DNA from: Bacteroidetes bacterium RIFCSPLOWO2_12_FULL_37_12
GTDB lineage: Bacteria; Bacteroidota; Bacteroidia; 2-12-FULL-37-12
DNA length: 50,253 bases
Direction of reading: 5' to 3'
Assembly: GCA_001769655.1 (NCBI GenBank)
Contig: MEPC01000033.1
Coordinates: 72,522 to 122,774, forward strand
A model generated the notes under the pieces. The model worked only from the letters and a program-made list of their open reading frames with translations, ran no database searches and was not told the origin of the DNA. Below are positions 37,058 to 50,115 of the stretch, piece by piece. How positions within the stretch are numbered: position 1 is the stretch's first letter; each line of letters begins with the position of its first letter. Position numbers and translations under genes: made by a program.

Positions 37058-37103
37058 TCAAAAGGGATACTGTTCAGCACATTCTATGTGAATTTCTAAG
37101 TTT

Positions 37104-37156
37104 CTATGTGCCTATGTGGTAAAATTTAACTTGTTTATTACCACATAGGCACATAG
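37104..37156. terminator. 19-bp perfect inverted repeat between convergent genes
   Basis: CTATGTGCCTATGTGGTAA (37104-37122) and its exact inverse (37138-37156) flank a 15-base loop, between pyrD and the convergent TPR gene. It can fold on either strand. No long T-run follows, so it may be a dispersed palindrome used as a bidirectional terminator. Confidence 0.55.
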
Positions 37157-37206
37157 TTACATAGGGAAAACACATAGGACTGAACTGTAACACAAAAGGA
37201 ATATTC

Positions 37207-38666: not shown

Positions 38667-41600
38667 TTAATTAGACAATAGTTTTCCATTCAGAATTTCT
38701 TCAACCGATTTATCCAATTCTGAAATTGCGTCTTTATATAGTCTGATTTTTGATAGTAGAATGTGAAACTCTTTTACTTCATCTTCTTCCAGTCGCTTTC
38801 TATAATATGGATATGAATGAAGTTTTAACCATTCTCTGACAACTGAATAACCGGAAACTTCAAACTGTAAAATATTTTTGTCAATGTTAAAATATTGCCT
38901 AACTAAATTTCCTTTCTCGTCCAGGAAACGAATGCTGTCGGTATCAATTTTATACTTGTGATATTCCAATTCCTTCATATCATCCTTCTCGGTTTTTATT
39001 ATGAAATCACCTGCTTCAATATCCGCAAGTTGTTTTCCAAACTCAGCAATAGCAATGAATAAATCTTTGTCCGCTGTAATCGGAATACTTGCCCACTCAC
39101 CGGCAACATTGTAAAGTTTTCCTTTGAACTGTTCAAGATAAAATTCGGAGCTCAAAATAGCATAACAATAAAATGTCAAAGGGTTAATCAACTTTTCTTC
39201 TTTGATGCCAAACTCTTTTGAAAGATTTGAAAGTAGAGTAGGGTTGATATTTGTCTTTACTTTGGAATCCCAATCTTTTTTCTTTTTGTATTCAGGAAAG
39301 AAGTTGCAAAAGATATGAGCATTACCTCTTGTTGAAAGGTCGTTGTCAGGAACATTCCAACAGAAAGAAGAAAACTTGTGAAGTGTCTTTCCTAAATCTT
39401 CGGGTGCAGGAGCAACTGCAAATCCGAAAACATTGTTGTTTTTGTATGCGGCTCTGATTTCCGGTCTGTCACGCATTCCACCACCTTTTGTTTTTCCTAA
39501 CTCATCCAAAAGATTTTCGTCAAGCAACACATACGATTCCAAAAACGGACGATAAGAGTATTTAAAAATGTTCTGTGCTATAACTGCTTTCTCCAATTTG
39601 TTCTTCACTGCATCATTAATCTTTGCAGCAGGTGGTGGCTTTTGCTGCCCGGAATACCATTTCTCTTTTATCGTTGCGTAATTGTTCTCCCCTTTAGCAA
39701 TAAACTTTGACCTTCTCTTTAATTGTCCTTCTGATGAATGAACAAGTAAATGTGTCGGAGCAAGTTTCAAACTTGAACAGTGTCGTAAAAATATTCCTTC
39801 GTTATTCTCTGCCGTCAAAGCCCAAAAGCGACTATACATTTCCGCATCGTAATCACTTGCAGGTTTGAAAGAATAGTTTTCATCCAACTGATTTATTGTA
39901 GTCCAGTCAGCAAGTGAAACATCAGCATTAAAGAAGTCATGCTTTTGCTGTCTGTTCAGATTGCAAATGCTTTTGTAATTGATGTTGACTTTTTTACTGG
40001 CTTCACTTTTCAGAACTCCAACCAAAGCAAGTCGTCCTTGTAAAGTTTTGAAAACATTTGATGCTTCCGCTCCGGTTCTGTTGTCGGTGTCAAATTCAAG
40101 AATCCACAAGTCGGAAACTTTCTCGCTCAAATATTTTCTTGCAAACTTGTATGAATTGTATTTCACAAAACCTGATGGAAGTATGAGAGCAAAAACAGAA
40201 GGAATACTTTTCTCTGCTCTGTCAATTGTCCAACGCAGAAATTTTGCAAACTCATTTGTCAATTGCTTCTGAATATTTTGTCTTCCTTTTCTCTGTGAAG
40301 CATCCGGTCTGAAATCCTCCATCATTTCCTTAATCATCTCTCCTTCGTTTGCAACTTGAAATGATGAATCGGAAGAAGGTGGATTGCCGACAATAATTGT
40401 CAATGGTGGATTTGCAAGTTGATACGCCACTTGCTGTTCGTGAAGAAGCAAAGTGGTTATTTCATTATCTCCTTTCTTAGTCTGCACTTCTTCAAAAAGA
40501 TTATCACTGAGTGTATTTGTCAAAATGATTTTGATGTTGTCGGGATATTTCTCTCTCAACATTGTCATGCGATAATGTGCAAGTGCGTAAGGTGCAGGAA
40601 GAATTTCAAAACCGATTATACTTGAATTGGAACGGAGATTAAATCTCTCCAATATTGCTTCTATGAAAGTTCCTGTGCCGCAGCATGGGTCAATGACTTT
40701 ATGTTTGGTCGTTTCAAGTTTCAGATTCGGTAATGTCTTTTTGATTACCGCTTTCACCAAATTCACTGTGTAGAAAGCCAATGATCTTGGAGTGTAATAT
40801 GCTCCGTAATCAAATCTTGTTTCAGGGTCGTAAACACTCAGGAATGTTTCATACAATTCGTGAAAATCGGGTTGTTCAATTTGTTCATCCTTCAATTGAA
40901 TGTGAGCCAACATCCGCCTGAGGTCGTCATACCAAATTCCTAATCTGCTCAACTCGGAATCAAGTTCCGATTTTAATTCATGCACTAAAGTTCTGAATGG
41001 AATAAGTTTGTCGGTATATTCTTTTTCCAAAACGGAGAACCAGAAATCGTGAATCTTTTGATACTTGTCTTTTGGATTATTTGCGGCTTTGTCAACCACA
41101 CGATGAGCATACAACAAACCGAATGAAAGAATTTGTGCAATAAAACCAGCAAAAGCTTTATCGTCAATTAATGATTTGTCGTGGCTTTGTTCGGCTGTGC
41201 TTTTTAATTCTTTGAGAAGTTTGATTGTTGTTCTCTCTACTTTTGTTTCTCCTTCATCATCTTCAAGTTCTAAAAGTTCAAGCAGTTCTTCCGATAAATT
41301 TCTTGCTCGTTTTGCAACTTCATTTACTAATTGATTCTCAGTTACCTTTCTGTATCCCGCTTTCTTGAAAAAGGTTTTGAATAAAACTTCAACTTCAAAA
41401 TTCAATTCCGGCTTCTCCCAGTTTATCGGCTTGTTGCAAAGCGAAAAGAGTTTTTTCTTTCCATCGTGAGTGAACAAAACGAAATCAATTCCGTCAGTGA
41501 GTATTACTGGATTTTCCAAAACCAAATAGCGTTCAACCTGACTTTCATAATCACTCACTTTTATCTCTTTCTTTTGGTCAAGTCCTTTCGCTTCCACATA

Positions 41601-41843
41601 TCCGTAAACTCCCATTGAATTGGAATTGTGAAATCTCCAATCGGGTCTTCCAAGTTTGCCTTGATTTTTCGGTTCGTGGATTCTGTCAATCTTTTTGTCA
41701 ATCCTCTCGGCAACATTCGTGAAAAAACCATCTAAGCTTATTCTGAAAGAAAGTTCATCGGTTGCTTCACCTGCAGAAGTACCGACTGAAAATTCTTTTT
41801 TCAGTTCCTTGAAATATTGTTCCGCTATTTGCTGAAAGGTCAT
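38667..41843 (-). CDS. Type IIG/ISP-like restriction enzyme: nuclease plus N6-adenine methyltransferase
   Basis: A 1058-residue fusion. Residues about 60-110 carry a PD-(D/E)xK-like nuclease pattern: GRPDWRF, then VYGYVEAKG. Residues 330-400 hold the N-6 methylase entry (YGAYYTPRSLAFY) and SAM-binding motif I (DPCCGTGTFIEAIL). Motif IV is GNPPS at about residue 490, where NPPY or NPPF is usual. The C-terminal third (YRPFLESYVL, then FYLEQFKGKLYN) resembles the specificity part of type ISP enzymes. No helicase motifs are seen, so a single-chain type IIG-like cutter is more likely than a type ISP motor. Its ATG overlaps the upstream methyltransferase stop by 4 bases. Confidence 0.8.
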   Translation of the reverse strand: MTFQQIAEQYFKELKKEFSVGTSAGEATDELSFRISLDGFFTNVAERIDKKIDRIHEPKNQGKLGRPDWRFHNSNSMGVYGYVEAKGLDQKKEIKVSDYESQVERYLVLENPVILTDGIDFVLFTHDGKKKLFSLCNKPINWEKPELNFEVEVLFKTFFKKAGYRKVTENQLVNEVAKRARNLSEELLELLELEDDEGETKVERTTIKLLKELKSTAEQSHDKSLIDDKAFAGFIAQILSFGLLYAHRVVDKAANNPKDKYQKIHDFWFSVLEKEYTDKLIPFRTLVHELKSELDSELSRLGIWYDDLRRMLAHIQLKDEQIEQPDFHELYETFLSVYDPETRFDYGAYYTPRSLAFYTVNLVKAVIKKTLPNLKLETTKHKVIDPCCGTGTFIEAILERFNLRSNSSIIGFEILPAPYALAHYRMTMLREKYPDNIKIILTNTLSDNLFEEVQTKKGDNEITTLLLHEQQVAYQLANPPLTIIVGNPPSSDSSFQVANEGEMIKEMMEDFRPDASQRKGRQNIQKQLTNEFAKFLRWTIDRAEKSIPSVFALILPSGFVKYNSYKFARKYLSEKVSDLWILEFDTDNRTGAEASNVFKTLQGRLALVGVLKSEASKKVNINYKSICNLNRQQKHDFFNADVSLADWTTINQLDENYSFKPASDYDAEMYSRFWALTAENNEGIFLRHCSSLKLAPTHLLVHSSEGQLKRRSKFIAKGENNYATIKEKWYSGQQKPPPAAKINDAVKNKLEKAVIAQNIFKYSYRPFLESYVLLDENLLDELGKTKGGGMRDRPEIRAAYKNNNVFGFAVAPAPEDLGKTLHKFSSFCWNVPDNDLSTRGNAHIFCNFFPEYKKKKDWDSKVKTNINPTLLSNLSKEFGIKEEKLINPLTFYCYAILSSEFYLEQFKGKLYNVAGEWASIPITADKDLFIAIAEFGKQLADIEAGDFIIKTEKDDMKELEYHKYKIDTDSIRFLDEKGNLVRQYFNIDKNILQFEVSGYSVVREWLKLHSYPYYRKRLEEDEVKEFHILLSKIRLYKDAISELDKSVEEILNGKLLSN

Positions 41844-42880
41844 ACGATGCTTTGAATTATTTTTTTGCCGATTGCATAAGCCAGTTTTGGTGGAACTGCG
41901 TTTCCGATTTGTCTTGCAACATCAACTTTGTTTCCGCAAAAGTCAAAGTCCATTGGGAAAGTTTGAAGCAATGCACCTTCACGAAGTGAAATGCTTCTGT
42001 GTTGTTCGGGGTGTCCGAACAAACCTCTTGTAAAACTGTCAAACCTTGCGGTAATGGTTGGGGCAACTTCATCCCAACTCATTCTTCCGTAAACATTTCT
42101 GTGTCCGATAACACTTGAATCAATCTTGTGGCATTCGGCTAATAATTTTTCGGGAAGAAATTCTCTGCCTTGTCCTTGCTTCAAATATTTTATTCGTTCA
42201 AGATTGATTTTGGAAAGCTTGTCGCTACGATGTAAAGAAATTTTTGCATGGTCTTTTCCATCAATGGGTGGCTTCGGCAATTTTGAAATGATGTCTCTCA
42301 CAGTAAATTTTTTTCCTATTGCTTTTGGAAATTGAAATTTCAATTTTCCATTCAACATTCTTTCTCCTACAATAATCAATCTCCTTCTTCTTTGCGGAAC
42401 CCCATAATCTTGAGCATCCAATATTTGTCTGTTGATTGCGTAACCGTTTTGCTCTGCAAAAGCAATAGCATCTTCCAAAATTTCCTTTCCTCTTTTCCCT
42501 GCGATGCCGGGAACATTTTCCATCAAAAAAAATTTAGGAAGAAAGTCAACGACTTTCTTCATGAATTCAAAAATCAAATTGTTTCTGTCGTCTGAATCTT
42601 CTCCGATTCTCTGAATTGAAAATCCCTGGCATGGTGGTCCGCCTGCGAACAAGGTCAGTACACCTCTCTTAATTCCAAGTTGCTTCATCAGTTGCTTGGA
42701 GTTGATTTGAGTTATGTCTGTACAAACTGCTTCGTGATTGAAATATTTTGTGTTTAGCTTTTGCGTTTTGATTGAAAGTTCATCAATGTCAAAACTGAAC
42801 AATATTTCAAACCCTGCCTTTGATAAGCCTAAGCTTAAACCGCCTGCTCCCGAAAAACTGTCAATACAAGTATGTCTCAT
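41840..42880 (-). CDS. C5-cytosine DNA methyltransferase 1
   Basis: A 346-residue m5C methyltransferase. Motif I: DSFSGAGGLSLGL; motif IV: GGPPCQGFSIQ with the catalytic Cys; motif VI: FLMENVPGI; motif VIII: QRRRRLIIVG; motifs IX-X: RDIISKLP and ARQIGNAVPPKLA. The target-recognition region (about residues 190-280) differs from that of its neighbour, so the two probably recognise different strands or sites. It overlaps both neighbours by 4 bases (ATGA). Confidence 0.94.
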   Translation of the reverse strand: MRHTCIDSFSGAGGLSLGLSKAGFEILFSFDIDELSIKTQKLNTKYFNHEAVCTDITQINSKQLMKQLGIKRGVLTLFAGGPPCQGFSIQRIGEDSDDRNNLIFEFMKKVVDFLPKFFLMENVPGIAGKRGKEILEDAIAFAEQNGYAINRQILDAQDYGVPQRRRRLIIVGERMLNGKLKFQFPKAIGKKFTVRDIISKLPKPPIDGKDHAKISLHRSDKLSKINLERIKYLKQGQGREFLPEKLLAECHKIDSSVIGHRNVYGRMSWDEVAPTITARFDSFTRGLFGHPEQHRSISLREGALLQTFPMDFDFCGNKVDVARQIGNAVPPKLAYAIGKKIIQSIV

Positions 42881-44169
42881 GCAAGAACTGCTTTATTTGT
42901 TTTTAGTATCTTGTGTCCGTTGTGATTTCCGTTTTGATGTAAGCCGTTTCCATTTAATTTCTTAACTGCAATTCCGTTTTTAATTGAAGTAAAGTCAAGT
43001 GCAATCTGTGTTGCTATTGCCAATGAAAGTAAAGGTGGAACAGCTTCACCGATTTGTTTGAAACACTCGTCAAGATTTCCTTCAAACTCAAAACCGTCAG
43101 GGAAACTTTGAATCCTTGCAGCTTCTCTAATTGTCAGCCCTCTGTTCTGAATCGGATGAGTGAATCGTCCGCTTGCCGGATTTCTTGAATATTGTGTGAT
43201 TGTGATGGAAGGTTTTTCCCAACTCAATCTTCCGTAAACATCATAAAAGCCAGTGACCTTATCCAAACATTTCGGTCCAACTCCTTTCGGTCTGCTTCCT
43301 CCGTTTTTCGGAACTTTTGAAATTGTTTCAATCGTGCTTTTCTTGTGCGAAGCGCTGCGGTGGTAAGAATCGCCTTTGAAAATTTCCCCTGCATTTACTT
43401 TTGGTAAATCTCCGATTGCATCTTTCACGGTTGAATACTCGTCAGGCGTAAGAAGTTCCAACGGAAGTGAGAAATTATTTTTCGATGCTACGATTACCGC
43501 TCTGTATCGTGCTTGCGGTACTCCGAAACCTGCTGAATTAATAATGGTCTGTGAGATTTTGTAACCTTTGTTTTCAAAAATTTCTTTCGCTTCCTGATAA
43601 TGTTGAAAATATTTTTCACCTAAAATTTCAGGAACATTTTCCATCACGATGTAATTAGGATTAAATGAAACAACCACTTCTGCAAATGCTTCGATTAAAG
43701 TATTTCGTTCATCATGTGTTTGTTGGTATCGTTTTTGGTGAGCAGAAAAGCCCTGACAAGGAGCACAACCGATTATCACCAAAGGTTTTTTTCTTTTCTC
43801 TTTTATTCCGAAATAATCTCTGATTATCTGCTGTTCTTTATTAAGATAAATTTCTCTTATATCTTTCCGCAAAATTTTTGCTTTGTAGTTTTTCTCAAAA
43901 GATTTCAAAGCGATTTCGCTGATGTCAACTCCCCCAATAATGTTAAATAGGTTTGTCTTTTGAGAAATTGCTGCAAAGCCCAAGGACATTCCACCACAAC
44001 CTGAAAAGAAATCCAACACATCAATTTCTCCTTGGGTGGTTGCTTCTTTAGGTTTCCAGCTTTTCAAAAGTTTTACGCCTGCGTAAAACTTTTCTTTAAA
44101 CTGCGCTTGGTTTTTATTAGCAGTGCCATTTACTCCAATTAGTTTTCCGTTGAATGTCTGTTTCTGCAT
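42877..44169 (-). CDS. C5-cytosine DNA methyltransferase 2
   Basis: A 430-residue m5C methyltransferase. Motif I: DFFSGCGGMSLGF; motif IV: GCAPCQGFSAHQ with the catalytic Cys; motif VI: YIVMENVPEI; motif VIII: QARYRAVIVA; final motif FKQIGEAVPPLLSLA. It has an N-terminal extension of about 45 residues before motif I and a Gly/Asn/His-rich C-terminal tail (NGLHQNGNHNGH) that looks disordered. It begins 3 bases after the regulator stop and overlaps the next gene by 4 bases. Confidence 0.94.
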   Translation of the reverse strand: MQKQTFNGKLIGVNGTANKNQAQFKEKFYAGVKLLKSWKPKEATTQGEIDVLDFFSGCGGMSLGFAAISQKTNLFNIIGGVDISEIALKSFEKNYKAKILRKDIREIYLNKEQQIIRDYFGIKEKRKKPLVIIGCAPCQGFSAHQKRYQQTHDERNTLIEAFAEVVVSFNPNYIVMENVPEILGEKYFQHYQEAKEIFENKGYKISQTIINSAGFGVPQARYRAVIVASKNNFSLPLELLTPDEYSTVKDAIGDLPKVNAGEIFKGDSYHRSASHKKSTIETISKVPKNGGSRPKGVGPKCLDKVTGFYDVYGRLSWEKPSITITQYSRNPASGRFTHPIQNRGLTIREAARIQSFPDGFEFEGNLDECFKQIGEAVPPLLSLAIATQIALDFTSIKNGIAVKKLNGNGLHQNGNHNGHKILKTNKAVLA

Positions 44170-44172
44170 CTT

Positions 44173-44475
44173 CTATGCTTTTGATTTTTGGACATACTTG
44201 ATTTTTTCTTCGGCTACTTTCAGTGCTTTGCAAGCGAGATTTTCATCTCCGATTTCATAAGTTACTTTGTCGCTTAACCATGCAACAATCAATTCGTCCT
44301 CGTCGATTTTGTAAAACTTAGCAAATTTCAAAACCTGTTCTCTTGTCGGTTTGCGTTCGCCTCGTTCAAATTTGCTGATAATAGCTTGGTCAATGTCTAA
44401 CTCTGCCGCAACTTGTCGGAGAATCAGAGAATCCCGCTCTCTTGCAACTCTGATTTTATCACCAAATGTTTCCAT
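44173..44475 (-). CDS. XRE-family regulator of the R-M cassette
   Basis: A 100-residue protein from the ATG at 44475; longer in-frame starts would lie beyond the operator and promoter. Residues about 4-60 form a helix-turn-helix of the XRE type (LRQVAAELDIDQAIISKFERGERKPTREQVLKFAKFYKIDE). A charged C-terminal tail follows. First gene of the R-M operon, placed like the controller (C) proteins of type II systems, which delay nuclease expression in a new host. A palindrome sits 15-33 bases upstream of its start (see 44490-44512). Confidence 0.9.
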   Translation of the reverse strand: METFGDKIRVARERDSLILRQVAAELDIDQAIISKFERGERKPTREQVLKFAKFYKIDEDELIVAWLSDKVTYEIGDENLACKALKVAEEKIKYVQKSKA

Positions 44476-44770: not shown

Positions 44771-44784
44771 TCAGTCCACTCCCG

Positions 44785-44858
44785 TGACCCCGGAGGGATT
44801 CGAACCCCCAACCAACTGATCCGAAGTCAGTTATTCTATCCAGTTGAACTACGGAGCC
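44785..44858 (-). tRNA. tRNA-Arg (anticodon TCG)
   Basis: The minus strand folds into a full cloverleaf: acceptor GGCTCCG/CGGGGTC, D-arm GTTC/GAAT, anticodon stem ACTGA/TCAGT with loop CTTCGGA (anticodon TCG at its third to fifth bases), T-arm GGGGG/CCCTC with loop TTCGAAT, discriminator A. CCA is not encoded. Its 3' end points to the R-M cassette, a usual arrangement for an integrated island. Confidence 0.92.
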
Positions 44859-46734: not shown

Positions 46735-49700
46735 TTACAACTGACTTCCCCTCCCCACCTTCCCCCTCCTCTTCCTTCTGAACGTCCGCTCCAGTAACTG
46801 CTCTGCCTTTTCGTGTAACGGGTACAGCAGGAGTGCCAGTAAAAAATTAAAGGCGAGTTTCCAGCCGGGAGCGTTTCCGGAAAATTGTTCTATGTAAGGA
46901 TTCATGAAAACAATGGCTGTTTCAAACAACAGCAAAAAGGGTATGGTGGTGGCGATTTGTATGAGAGCCGGAGGTAAAACCAAACGGCTCAGGAGCAATG
47001 TTAATGCAAGTACGCCAAAAAACCCAACCATCACTAATGAATAGCCAATCTTATCTTCCCGCTCTTTTTCAATGCGGGCGGTTTCTGCCGACTGTTCTGC
47101 TTTTTTCTGACGCTCAAAATCCTCTATCTCTATTTTATGACGGGTTTCTAACTTTCCTATTTCCTTGCTTTTTTCCTCATTGAACAGGGTGTCTTTGACG
47201 GTGTCGTATTTTTTGTAGTGGGTGAGGGCGAGGCGCAGGTACGTTGAGACGCCCAAATTGGGTGTCTTAACATGCCCTGATTCTGCCAATTGTGCCAGTG
47301 TATCGTAGAGGTTAGTAAACATTTCATGAAGATCCTTTTGAGAATTAAGATCTCCTATTTCTGTTGATAAAACTAATGCACTATCAAGATATTGCTCCGC
47401 CTCATTAAATTGCCCGAGTTTGGTGTAGACCAAGCCGATGTTGCCGAGGTCTATTGCAATACCGTTTTTATCTCTGAGTTCTTTATCAATCTTCAACGCA
47501 TCAGAATAGTTTTCCAATGCCTTGGGATAGTTACCCTGCTCCTTGTAAACAATTCCGATGTTGCTGAGGTCTGTAGCAATATCATTTTTATTTCCGAGTT
47601 CTTTATCCATTTTCAATGCCTCAAAATAGTTTTCCAATGCCTTGGGATAGTTTCCCTGTTCATCGTAAACAATTCCGATGTTGCCGAGGTGTCTGGCAAT
47701 ACCTTTTTTATTACCGAGTTCTTTATCCATCTTCAACGCCTCAAAATAGCTTTCCAATGCCTTGGGATAGTTGCCCTGGTTTCTGTAAACAATTCCGATA
47801 TCGCCGAGGTGTCTGGCAATGTCGTTTTTATCATCGAGTTCTTTCGCCATTTTCAATGCCTCAAAATAGTTTTCCAATGCTTTGGAATAGTTGCCCTGCT
47901 CATGGTAAACAATTCCGATGTTGCCGAGGTGTCTGGTAATGCCGTTTTTATTACCGAGTTCTTTATCCATCTTCAACGCCTTAAAATAGTTTTCCAATGC
48001 CTTGGGAGAGTTTCCTTGGTTATAGTAAACATTGCCGATGTTGCCGAGGGAGGTGGCAATGCCTTTGCGGTCCTTGATATTTTTTCTTATGGTAAGAGAT
48101 TTAAAACTATATTCAAGTGAAAGGGGATAATTTCCTTTAATCCTGTTAAATTCTGCAAGATTGTGATAAGAGTTGGCAATACCTTTTTGCCATTTGCTTT
48201 TTTGGGCAAGAGAAAGCGATTGAGAGGAAAGAATAATAGAAGTGTCGGGATTGGTGTTGCGAAACTCCCAGCCGAGGGCATTGAGGGTGTTGATGCGGGT
48301 GGTGTCGTGCAGGTCTTTTTGCAACTCTGCGTTCAATGAATCGGTATTAAACACAAAGGCACTAAGAAAAAACACGAAGGCACTAAGAAAAAAAATAAAG
48401 AAAAGAGTAAAAAATTTTGTACCCATTGTGTTCCTTTCGTGTTCTTTGTGTTTAACTTCGTGTTCTTCGTGTTTAAAACTAAATCCCAACGTCATAGCCA
48501 TCCGCTTTTCAGAGAAATAATAAACAATAGAAACCGTACCGGCAAACAAACAGCTCAACAGGGTTTTATACACTACTTTGTTTTGAGTGAGCGTTTCTAT
48601 GTCGGTATCAAAGTAAATCAGAAGTGTTTCAAAAAAGATAAATATGGTGGCAAAGAGCAGTCCTAATGCAAAAGCATGTTTATTTATTGCAATAACCCTT
48701 TGCGCCATTGCGCCTTTGCGTGAAACTTTTATCTGCTCCGGTATCCTCGCAAGCAGACGTCTGCTGTTTAACAATGTAAGCAATAATAGAGTAAACAGCA
48801 ACACAATCACTGCGTATTGCAACATATCCCTCCTGCCAACTGATACTGTCTCCTGCCTGCTTCTTTCCTCCTCCTGTTTGGCTTTTTCCAATGCATCCAT
48901 TTCCCATTCGTGCTGTGCCTCTAACCCGCCTATCTTCTTGCTTTTCTCTTCGTTGAATATGGTGTCTTTGGCGGCACTGTATTTTTTGTAGTGGGTGTAA
49001 GCGAGGCGCAGGTATGTGGAGACGCCAAAATTGGGCGTCTTTACATGCCCTGATTCAGCCAATTGTGCCAGAGTATCGTAAAGTTGGCTGGTATTTTTCT
49101 CATAATACATGGAATAATTCAAAGCTCCTATACTATCGCATAATGCAAGGGCGCTGTCAAGATATTGTTCCGCCTTATTAAATTGCCCGAGTTTGGTGTA
49201 GAGCGAACCAATGTTGCCGATCCATGCAGCAATATTGTTTTTATTACCGAGTTCTTTCGCCATTTTCAATGCTTCGTAATAGTTTTCCAATGCCATGGGA
49301 TAGTTGCCCTGCTCATCGTAAACAATTCCGATGTTGCCGAGGCGTATGGCAATGCCGTTTTTATCTCCGAGTTCTTTATCCATCTTCAACGCCGCAAAAA
49401 AGCTTTCCAATGCCTTAGGATAGTTGCCCTGCTCATCGTAAACAACTCCGATGTTGCCGAGGCGTATGGCAATGCTGTTTTTATTACCGAGTTCTTTCGC
49501 CATCTTCAATGCTTCGTAATAGTTTTCCAATGCCATGGGATAGTTGCCCTGCTCATCGTAAACAAGTCCGATGTTGCCGAGGTGTCTAGCAATGCCGTTT
49601 TTGTTACCGAGTTCTTTATCCATCTTCAACGCCTCAAAATGGTTTTCCAATGCCTTGGGATAGTTGCCCTGCATAAAGTAAACATTTCCGATGTTGCCGA

Positions 49701-50115
49701 GGATGGCGGATATGCCTTTTTTGTTGTTGCTCCGCTTGTCTATTTCAAGGGACCTTGAATAAAAATTCAATGCTTGGGGATAGTTACCTATATCAAAATT
49801 ATATACACCAATATTTCGCAGGGTATTGGCTTTTCCTTTCTGTCCCGCTGTCCACAAAGCAGTTCCTTCGCTTACACTCCGGACAAGTTTTTCTGCTAAT
49901 TGGAGAGCATGCTGTAAAACAATAAATGAGGTGTCGGGGTTGGAGTATTCGTATTCCCATGCGAGGGCGTTGAGCAGGTTTATGCGGGTGGTGTCGGGGA
50001 GGTTTTTTTTCAGTTCTAATTTGAGGGAGTCGGCTTTGGAGAAATAGAAACCACAGGAATTATTTTTTAAAAGAATTAAGAGCGATAAAATAATTGAGAG
50101 TTTTATAAGTTTCAT
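46735..50115 (-). CDS. Head-to-tail fusion of two TPR membrane proteins
   Basis: A 1126-residue protein with two homologous halves. Half 1: signal peptide (about 1-22), 40-residue TPR units (YPKALENYFEALKM, GNIGxVYxEQGN) to about residue 350, a Glu-rich coiled coil near 400-425, then 3-4 membrane segments (about 430-535). Linker 545-565: KHEEHEVKHKEHERN, coded by AACACGAAG-type repeats. Half 2: a second signal-like helix (TKFFTLFFIFFLSAFVFFLSAF), more TPRs, coiled coil and membrane segments to the end. Both halves share NPDTS, DTTRIN and AESGHVKTPN segments. An ATG at 48426 could start the second half alone. Likely a membrane sensor scaffold; no enzyme domain is visible. Confidence 0.85.
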   Translation of the reverse strand: MKLIKLSIILSLLILLKNNSCGFYFSKADSLKLELKKNLPDTTRINLLNALAWEYEYSNPDTSFIVLQHALQLAEKLVRSVSEGTALWTAGQKGKANTLRNIGVYNFDIGNYPQALNFYSRSLEIDKRSNNKKGISAILGNIGNVYFMQGNYPKALENHFEALKMDKELGNKNGIARHLGNIGLVYDEQGNYPMALENYYEALKMAKELGNKNSIAIRLGNIGVVYDEQGNYPKALESFFAALKMDKELGDKNGIAIRLGNIGIVYDEQGNYPMALENYYEALKMAKELGNKNNIAAWIGNIGSLYTKLGQFNKAEQYLDSALALCDSIGALNYSMYYEKNTSQLYDTLAQLAESGHVKTPNFGVSTYLRLAYTHYKKYSAAKDTIFNEEKSKKIGGLEAQHEWEMDALEKAKQEEERSRQETVSVGRRDMLQYAVIVLLFTLLLLTLLNSRRLLARIPEQIKVSRKGAMAQRVIAINKHAFALGLLFATIFIFFETLLIYFDTDIETLTQNKVVYKTLLSCLFAGTVSIVYYFSEKRMAMTLGFSFKHEEHEVKHKEHERNTMGTKFFTLFFIFFLSAFVFFLSAFVFNTDSLNAELQKDLHDTTRINTLNALGWEFRNTNPDTSIILSSQSLSLAQKSKWQKGIANSYHNLAEFNRIKGNYPLSLEYSFKSLTIRKNIKDRKGIATSLGNIGNVYYNQGNSPKALENYFKALKMDKELGNKNGITRHLGNIGIVYHEQGNYSKALENYFEALKMAKELDDKNDIARHLGDIGIVYRNQGNYPKALESYFEALKMDKELGNKKGIARHLGNIGIVYDEQGNYPKALENYFEALKMDKELGNKNDIATDLSNIGIVYKEQGNYPKALENYSDALKIDKELRDKNGIAIDLGNIGLVYTKLGQFNEAEQYLDSALVLSTEIGDLNSQKDLHEMFTNLYDTLAQLAESGHVKTPNLGVSTYLRLALTHYKKYDTVKDTLFNEEKSKEIGKLETRHKIEIEDFERQKKAEQSAETARIEKEREDKIGYSLVMVGFFGVLALTLLLSRLVLPPALIQIATTIPFLLLFETAIVFMNPYIEQFSGNAPGWKLAFNFLLALLLYPLHEKAEQLLERTFRRKRRGKVGRGSQL
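47243..47271. repeat. In-frame palindrome within the TPR fusion, second half
   Basis: GTTGAGACGCCC and GGGTGTCTTAAC flank AAATT, pairing at 10 of 12 positions. It resembles the dispersed GTAGAGACGC...GCGTCTCTAC palindrome known from several phyla, here read as part of the protein (about residues 949-958). Confidence 0.7.
49016..49044. repeat. In-frame palindrome within the TPR fusion, first half
   Basis: GTGGAGACGCCA and TGGGCGTCTTTAC flank AAA with mostly complementary arms; homologous to the site at 47243-47271, at about residues 358-367. Confidence 0.7.

Follow-up and report, generated by a model that had tools for sequence, protein, structure and literature searches.

Type IIG restriction enzymes accompanied by two methyltransferases (MTases) are an established arrangement, known from BpuSI and BspLU11III, and from BseRI as an M1-M2 fusion (PMC3874165 Table 4; PMC3817140). 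In BpuSI and BspLU11III, a single chain carries a PD-(D/E)xK nuclease, a gamma-class MTase and a target recognition domain (TRD), while two stand-alone MTases, one m6A and one m5C enzyme, together modify both strands (PMC3874165, PMC3817140). The NPPY MTase of the restriction enzyme itself is active though weak, and BpuSI requires its two companions in vivo. BpuSI and Eco57I thus retain intrinsic MTase activity beside their companions, and in such systems the enzyme's own methylation may have a non-protective role (PMC3874165). More generally, where a single-chain IIG enzyme has one specificity domain, its recognition site is mostly asymmetric (PMC3874165). Two related groups are organised differently: MmeI-type (Type IIL) enzymes need no companion, their own single-strand m6A protecting the host, and Type ISP enzymes include a helicase-like ATPase domain. 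Finally, LlaJI uses two 5mC MTases for the asymmetric site GACGC/GCGTC, and in both LlaJI and BsuMI two 5mC MTase genes are followed by restriction genes (PMC1459862), which in LlaJI encode McrB/McrC-like subunits.

Here we analyzed a 50,253-nucleotide stretch of DNA from Bacteroidetes bacterium RIFCSPLOWO2_12_FULL_37_12 (the window), in which a four-gene cassette lies directly 3′ of a tRNA-Arg (tcg) gene (Table 1). A 3-nt gap separates the XRE-family gene from M1 (44170-44172), and 4 bp are shared both by M1 and M2 (42877-42880) and by M2 and the fusion gene (41840-41843), so that the coordinates confirm the compact same-strand arrangement described in an earlier, sequence-only reading of this locus. 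Pfam matches and placement in separate clades agree with the same reading that two C5 MTases with differing recognition regions precede a 1058-residue fusion. Its remark that having both companion MTases and an enzyme with its own MTase domain is unusual does not hold, as this is the organisation already known from BpuSI, BspLU11III and BseRI (PMC3874165, PMC3817140). Judging from the motifs, the cassette differs from these systems in having 5mC enzymes as its two companions and a replaced motif in the fusion's own MTase. The papers available for this analysis describe no IIG enzyme that has lost the aromatic residue of motif IV and is accompanied by a pair of 5mC MTases.

Table 1 Features of the cassette and domains of the fusion protein (window coordinates).
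Feature	Position	Strand	Details
tRNA-Arg (tcg)	44784-44858	-	ARAGORN
XRE-family regulator	44173-44475	-	100 aa from ATG 44475; PF01381 E 5e-10
M1, C5-cytosine DNA methyltransferase	42877-44169	-	430 aa; PF00145 E 4e-54
M2, C5-cytosine DNA methyltransferase	41840-42880	-	346 aa; PF00145 E 9e-64
Fusion: nuclease / helical connector / gamma-class MTase fold / Type ISP-like specificity domain	38667-41843	-	1058 aa
PD-(D/E)xK nuclease domain, fusion residues 1-165	41349-41843	-	E30, P67-D68, E84-A-K86, Q102
Gamma-class MTase fold, fusion residues 327-640	39924-40865	-	PF02384 match 327-495; motif I DPCCGTG kept
Motif IV GNPPSSDS, fusion residues 486-493	40365-40388	-	NPPY tyrosine replaced by serine
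Specificity (TRD) domain Type_ISP_C, fusion residues 698-1008	38820-39752	-	PF18135 E 1e-23

Elsewhere in the window, a 27-nt inverted repeat with a 15-nt loop (37096-37164) lies between two convergent genes and is probably a bidirectional terminator. A 1126-aa open reading frame (ORF) on the minus strand (46735-50115) falls into two halves that resemble each other; both contain repeated TPR-like units and have a hydrophobic C-terminal part, so that the ORF looks as if two adjacent paralogues had fused. A tRNA-flanked island bounded by attachment repeats was considered for the cassette and rejected, as the tRNA 3′ end has no second copy in the window.

The fusion unites a nuclease, a gamma-class MTase and a specificity domain in one chain, as Type IIG (IIC) enzymes do. 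Pfam matched N6_Mtase (PF02384, E 4e-14) and Type_ISP_C, and PADLOC assigned the protein to REase_MTase_IIG (8e-52). An AlphaFold2 model (mean pLDDT 74.6) matched DrdV (7lo5, 3e-32), LlaBIII (4xqk, 3e-26) and BpuSI (3s1s, 1.5e-11, weakly, with a TM of about 0.3) in the PDB, as well as the LlaGI and BrxX folds. The closest solved folds, DrdV and LlaBIII, thus come from the groups of DrdV/MmeI (Type IIL) and LlaGI/LlaBIII (Type ISP), with the Type_ISP_C domain in common. Unlike Type ISP enzymes, however, the 1058-aa fusion has no helicase domain recognized by Pfam, and unlike MmeI it is encoded with two companions. Taken together, its sequence and modeled fold identify it as a predicted Type IIG/IIL-like enzyme whose specificity domain resembles that of Type ISP enzymes. 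Because motif IV does not read NPP(Y/F/W), the adenine-methylation signature of Type IIG (IIC) enzymes, but NPPS here and NPP(S/C) across the five members described below, we file it as a IIG-derived, IIG-like restriction enzyme and not as a proven bifunctional IIG.

To evaluate this replacement, we aligned the fusion with 121 full-length homologues that share about 20-26% identity with it. E30, P67, D68, E84 and Q102 of the nuclease are kept, all among columns ≥93% conserved, and motif I residues D385, P386, G389 and T390 are conserved. The motif IV tyrosine is present in 121/121 of these distant homologues, which is consistent with the earlier suggestion that NPPS (serine codon TCT) marks a degenerate MTase domain. 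The fusion is nonetheless divergent overall, differing from its family at 53 of 130 highly conserved columns, and NPPS alone could therefore have been drift.

Closer relatives came from a viral contig collection. A search with the C5 enzymes returned M1-like genes (41-53% identity), mostly ahead of M2-like genes, and two of these contigs continue into a fusion 34-42% identical to that of the window; L325 and L326 were found with three fusions by the patterns RFDYGAY and IDPCCGT, motif IV not being included. All four relatives (L324, L325, L326 and L327) carry M1, M2 and the fusion in the order seen in the window, with identities to it of 34-42% for the fusion, 47-53% for M1 and 59-63% for M2. 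Motif IV reads NPPCSDS in L324 and L325 and NPPSSDS in L326 and L327; with S or C in four relatives as well, a sequencing error in the window is an unlikely source of NPPS. All five fusions group in a single clade (SH-aLRT 100) with one state change on the tree, and the nuclease residues including K86, DPCCGTG and NPP-x-SDS are invariant across them. The loss of the tyrosine is therefore old and conserved, yet one evolutionary event. Since four further cassettes have the same three genes and lack the same residue, the locus represents a conserved form of a known kind of defence system and not a one-off decay. A fusion that is decaying or inactive, leaving a cassette for methylation only, would fit the 53 deviating columns, but we consider it very unlikely: no nuclease residue has been lost, and for the most part the changes recur in four relatives that, at 34-42% identity, maintain an open frame, a C-terminal frameshift unique to L324 apart.

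Other searches for the fusion gave only distant matches or none. A single-protein scan of the viral contigs returned no match, its patterns having fallen on variable stretches, and broad family-alignment scans, one with a pattern that included NPPY, yielded only about 20-28% identical relatives among the matches listed. Among the matches listed for about 1,600 genomes, all from the host phylum, there was no close relative, and the best match in plasmid and phage records had about 22-25% identity. Genes of phage type (exonuclease, single-strand binding proteins, integrase) occur close to the cassette on some of the relatives' contigs. A vsr gene (PF03852) stands beside the cassette in 4/4 relatives, which fits production of 5mC; none was found in the host genome of the window.

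The lineage without the tyrosine is also the one with the C5 pair. A C5 MTase adjoining the fusion homologue was found at 0 of about 190 loci with distant NPPY homologues. A C5 gene occurred elsewhere in the flank at 3/193 distant loci, on the opposite strand at a distance of about 2.4 kb in one (L056) and several kb away in the other two (L124 and L126). A Fisher test of NPP(S/C) against C5 association (5/5 vs 0/90) gave a p of about 2e-8, a value that calls for caution, because all five members belong to a single clade and C5 genes entered the zero count only when adjacent. As the tyrosine was lost in a single event, its association with the C5 pair is seen in one lineage. The sequence-only reading had offered two alternatives, that the 5mC pair protects the site cut by the fusion or that the fusion's own MTase domain is degenerate and was replaced by the pair. 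These merge here, since the fusion has lost a residue that is invariant in its distant homologues and exactly that lineage carries the pair.

Studies of other NPPY enzymes indicate what this loss may entail. In CamA, the tyrosine stacks on the flipped adenine; in BrxX, the Y511A change abolished methylation and defence, and DNA binding too; and in BpuSI and TspGWI, changing the N of the motif to A eliminated SAM binding or left little or no cleavage. By analogy, tyrosine loss could harm cleavage by the fusion unless the pocket was rebuilt, and such rebuilding is needed if the enzyme still binds its site, because the BrxX change also abolished DNA binding. In the segment after fusion residue 584, the HG of the family is replaced by D-x-D-x-R-x-G, and this altered region, together with the conserved SDS, suggests a rebuilt pocket, in a fusion that may be active. 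It might still methylate adenine despite NPP(S/C), with the C5 pair adding protection as in the three MTases of BpuSI. Motif I is indeed intact, as is the N-P-P of motif IV, and intrinsic activity persists beside companions in BpuSI and Eco57I. Even so, we regard this as quite unlikely, given a tyrosine found in every full-length homologue and replaced in 5/5 cassette members, its stacking role in CamA, and the loss of methylation in BrxX.

By their motifs, M1 and M2 themselves are complete enzymes. Both retain the PCQ (catalytic C138 in M1, C84 in M2), ENV, QxRxR and G(N/E)AVPP motifs of C5 MTases, and a search of the host genome found no PF00145 genes besides these two. The same genome has at least five further N6_Mtase (PF02384) genes, on contigs C1, C24, C34, C38 and C42, which would complicate m6A assignment in a methylome. 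With different recognition regions and in separate clades (M1, n=14, support 97/97; M2, n=14, support 98/99), the two are not products of a recent duplication, a possibility thereby ruled out. Likewise excluded is that M1-M2 are homologues of the LlaJI enzymes reading GACGC: the LlaJI pair (pNP40) falls outside both clades, and that site is therefore not transferable to the window pair, the likeness being one of organisation only.

Outside the window, 12 contigs carry the pair, always in the same order, and its members co-diverge, the M1 and M2 trees mirroring each other by partner type. Fusion-type cassettes (n=5) form their own clade within M1 and within M2 (100/99 each), beside a McrB/McrC-like group and others (L336, L413). 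In the McrB/McrC-like group, L337, L412, L416 and L417 form a clade with L247 and L338 outside it; McrB-like AAA and McrC-like genes are present in all of these except L247, where the contig ends at the AAA gene. Since the same family also accompanies McrB/McrC-like genes, it is a transferable modification module, one that has been joined to restriction machines of at least two kinds (IIG-like and McrBC-like). The McrBC-like cassettes come in two- and three-ORF forms with the LlaJI/BsuMI organisation, several with vsr. Shortly after M2 on L413 (8844-13139; same in L414), an ORF of at least 1432 aa forms a third partner of the C5 pair; it has no Pfam, NCBIfam or PADLOC match and is possibly a new restriction component. 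Three near-identical viral-collection contigs (L415, L248 and L249) carry a solo M1-type C5 MTase without M2, perhaps an orphan protective methylase.

Could the two C5 MTases be orphan or regulatory methylases that merely adjoin the fusion? Their family does occur with other restriction partners, yet their genes overlap, their order is identical in five independent cassettes, and those of fusion-type cassettes form clades of their own, making this extremely improbable. A better candidate, although still an unlikely one, is that M1 and M2 are needed together, either cooperating or forming a heterodimer, on a site that is perhaps palindromic and with no division of strands. BsuMI is among the two-gene C5 systems reported to need both genes together, and the fixed order and co-divergence of the pair, as well as its association with three-ORF McrBC-like cassettes of the BsuMI kind, are consistent with joint action. 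However, each protein has full C5 motifs and its own recognition region, unlike split enzymes, and a solo M1 exists (L415). A palindromic site also agrees poorly with the asymmetric sites mostly read by IIG enzymes with one specificity domain (PMC3874165).

Overall, we consider it likely that the IIG-like fusion recognizes and cuts DNA, that its adenine methylation has been lost, and that host protection comes from the two 5mC enzymes, each probably acting on one strand. Homology and fold suggest that the site would be recognized by the MTase fold and the C-terminal specificity domain and cut by the N-terminal PD-(D/E)xK domain. SAM most likely still binds, probably as a cleavage cofactor as in other IIG enzymes; motif I for SAM (DPCCGTG) is conserved, and cutting stimulated by SAM at a fixed distance from the site is predicted. 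Adenine would no longer be methylated because the motif IV aromatic residue is gone, and host protection would have passed to M1 and M2, encoded by overlapping genes of the same presumed operon. We infer that the pair protects the fusion's own site, M1 and M2 most likely each methylating a cytosine on one strand of an asymmetric sequence, because these enzymes are always paired and separately descended, and because LlaJI and BpuSI provide precedents.

The cassette shares with BpuSI two separate companion MTases, as do L324-L327, whereas by motifs it lacks both the m6A plus m5C combination (both companions are PF00145 proteins) and an active intrinsic MTase. With LlaJI it shares the two 5mC genes ahead of a restriction gene, but the restriction enzyme is IIG-like and no AAA or McrC genes lie beside the window cassette, which is thus not of the LlaJI type. 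By analogy, the best reading is that the system would work as a BpuSI-type organisation with LlaJI-type modification.

The XRE protein is a generic helix-turn-helix regulator and a possible controller protein, with a weak PADLOC Control_protein match (7e-5); its frame can also be opened by a TTG upstream of the ATG. By its position, it probably times expression, with methylation ahead of cutting. No XRE gene was recognized directly upstream of M1 in the related cassettes (L324-L327, read by eye), so that the regulator is linked to the system by position only.

These features may also bear on a more far-reaching role for the MTase fold. The invariant NPP(S/C)SDS, the new DxDxRxG region after residue 584 and the kept SAM motif would be compatible with a rebuilt fold that is not simply dead but has been repurposed to read both the sequence and the cytosine marks of M1 and M2, licensing the nuclease only on unmarked DNA; we advance this tentatively, as a rather unlikely possibility. 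If true, a single-chain enzyme would have given up writing its own mark and would read one written by two others.

In this clade, nuclease, SAM site and recognition domain have been kept, the adenine-stacking tyrosine has been lost, and the companions are two 5mC enzymes. It thus represents a natural experiment, in which the need for base flipping and self-methylation in IIG cleavage can be tested. One 5mC-pair module, in turn, is common to two mechanistically different restriction machines, one IIG-like and the other McrBC-like.
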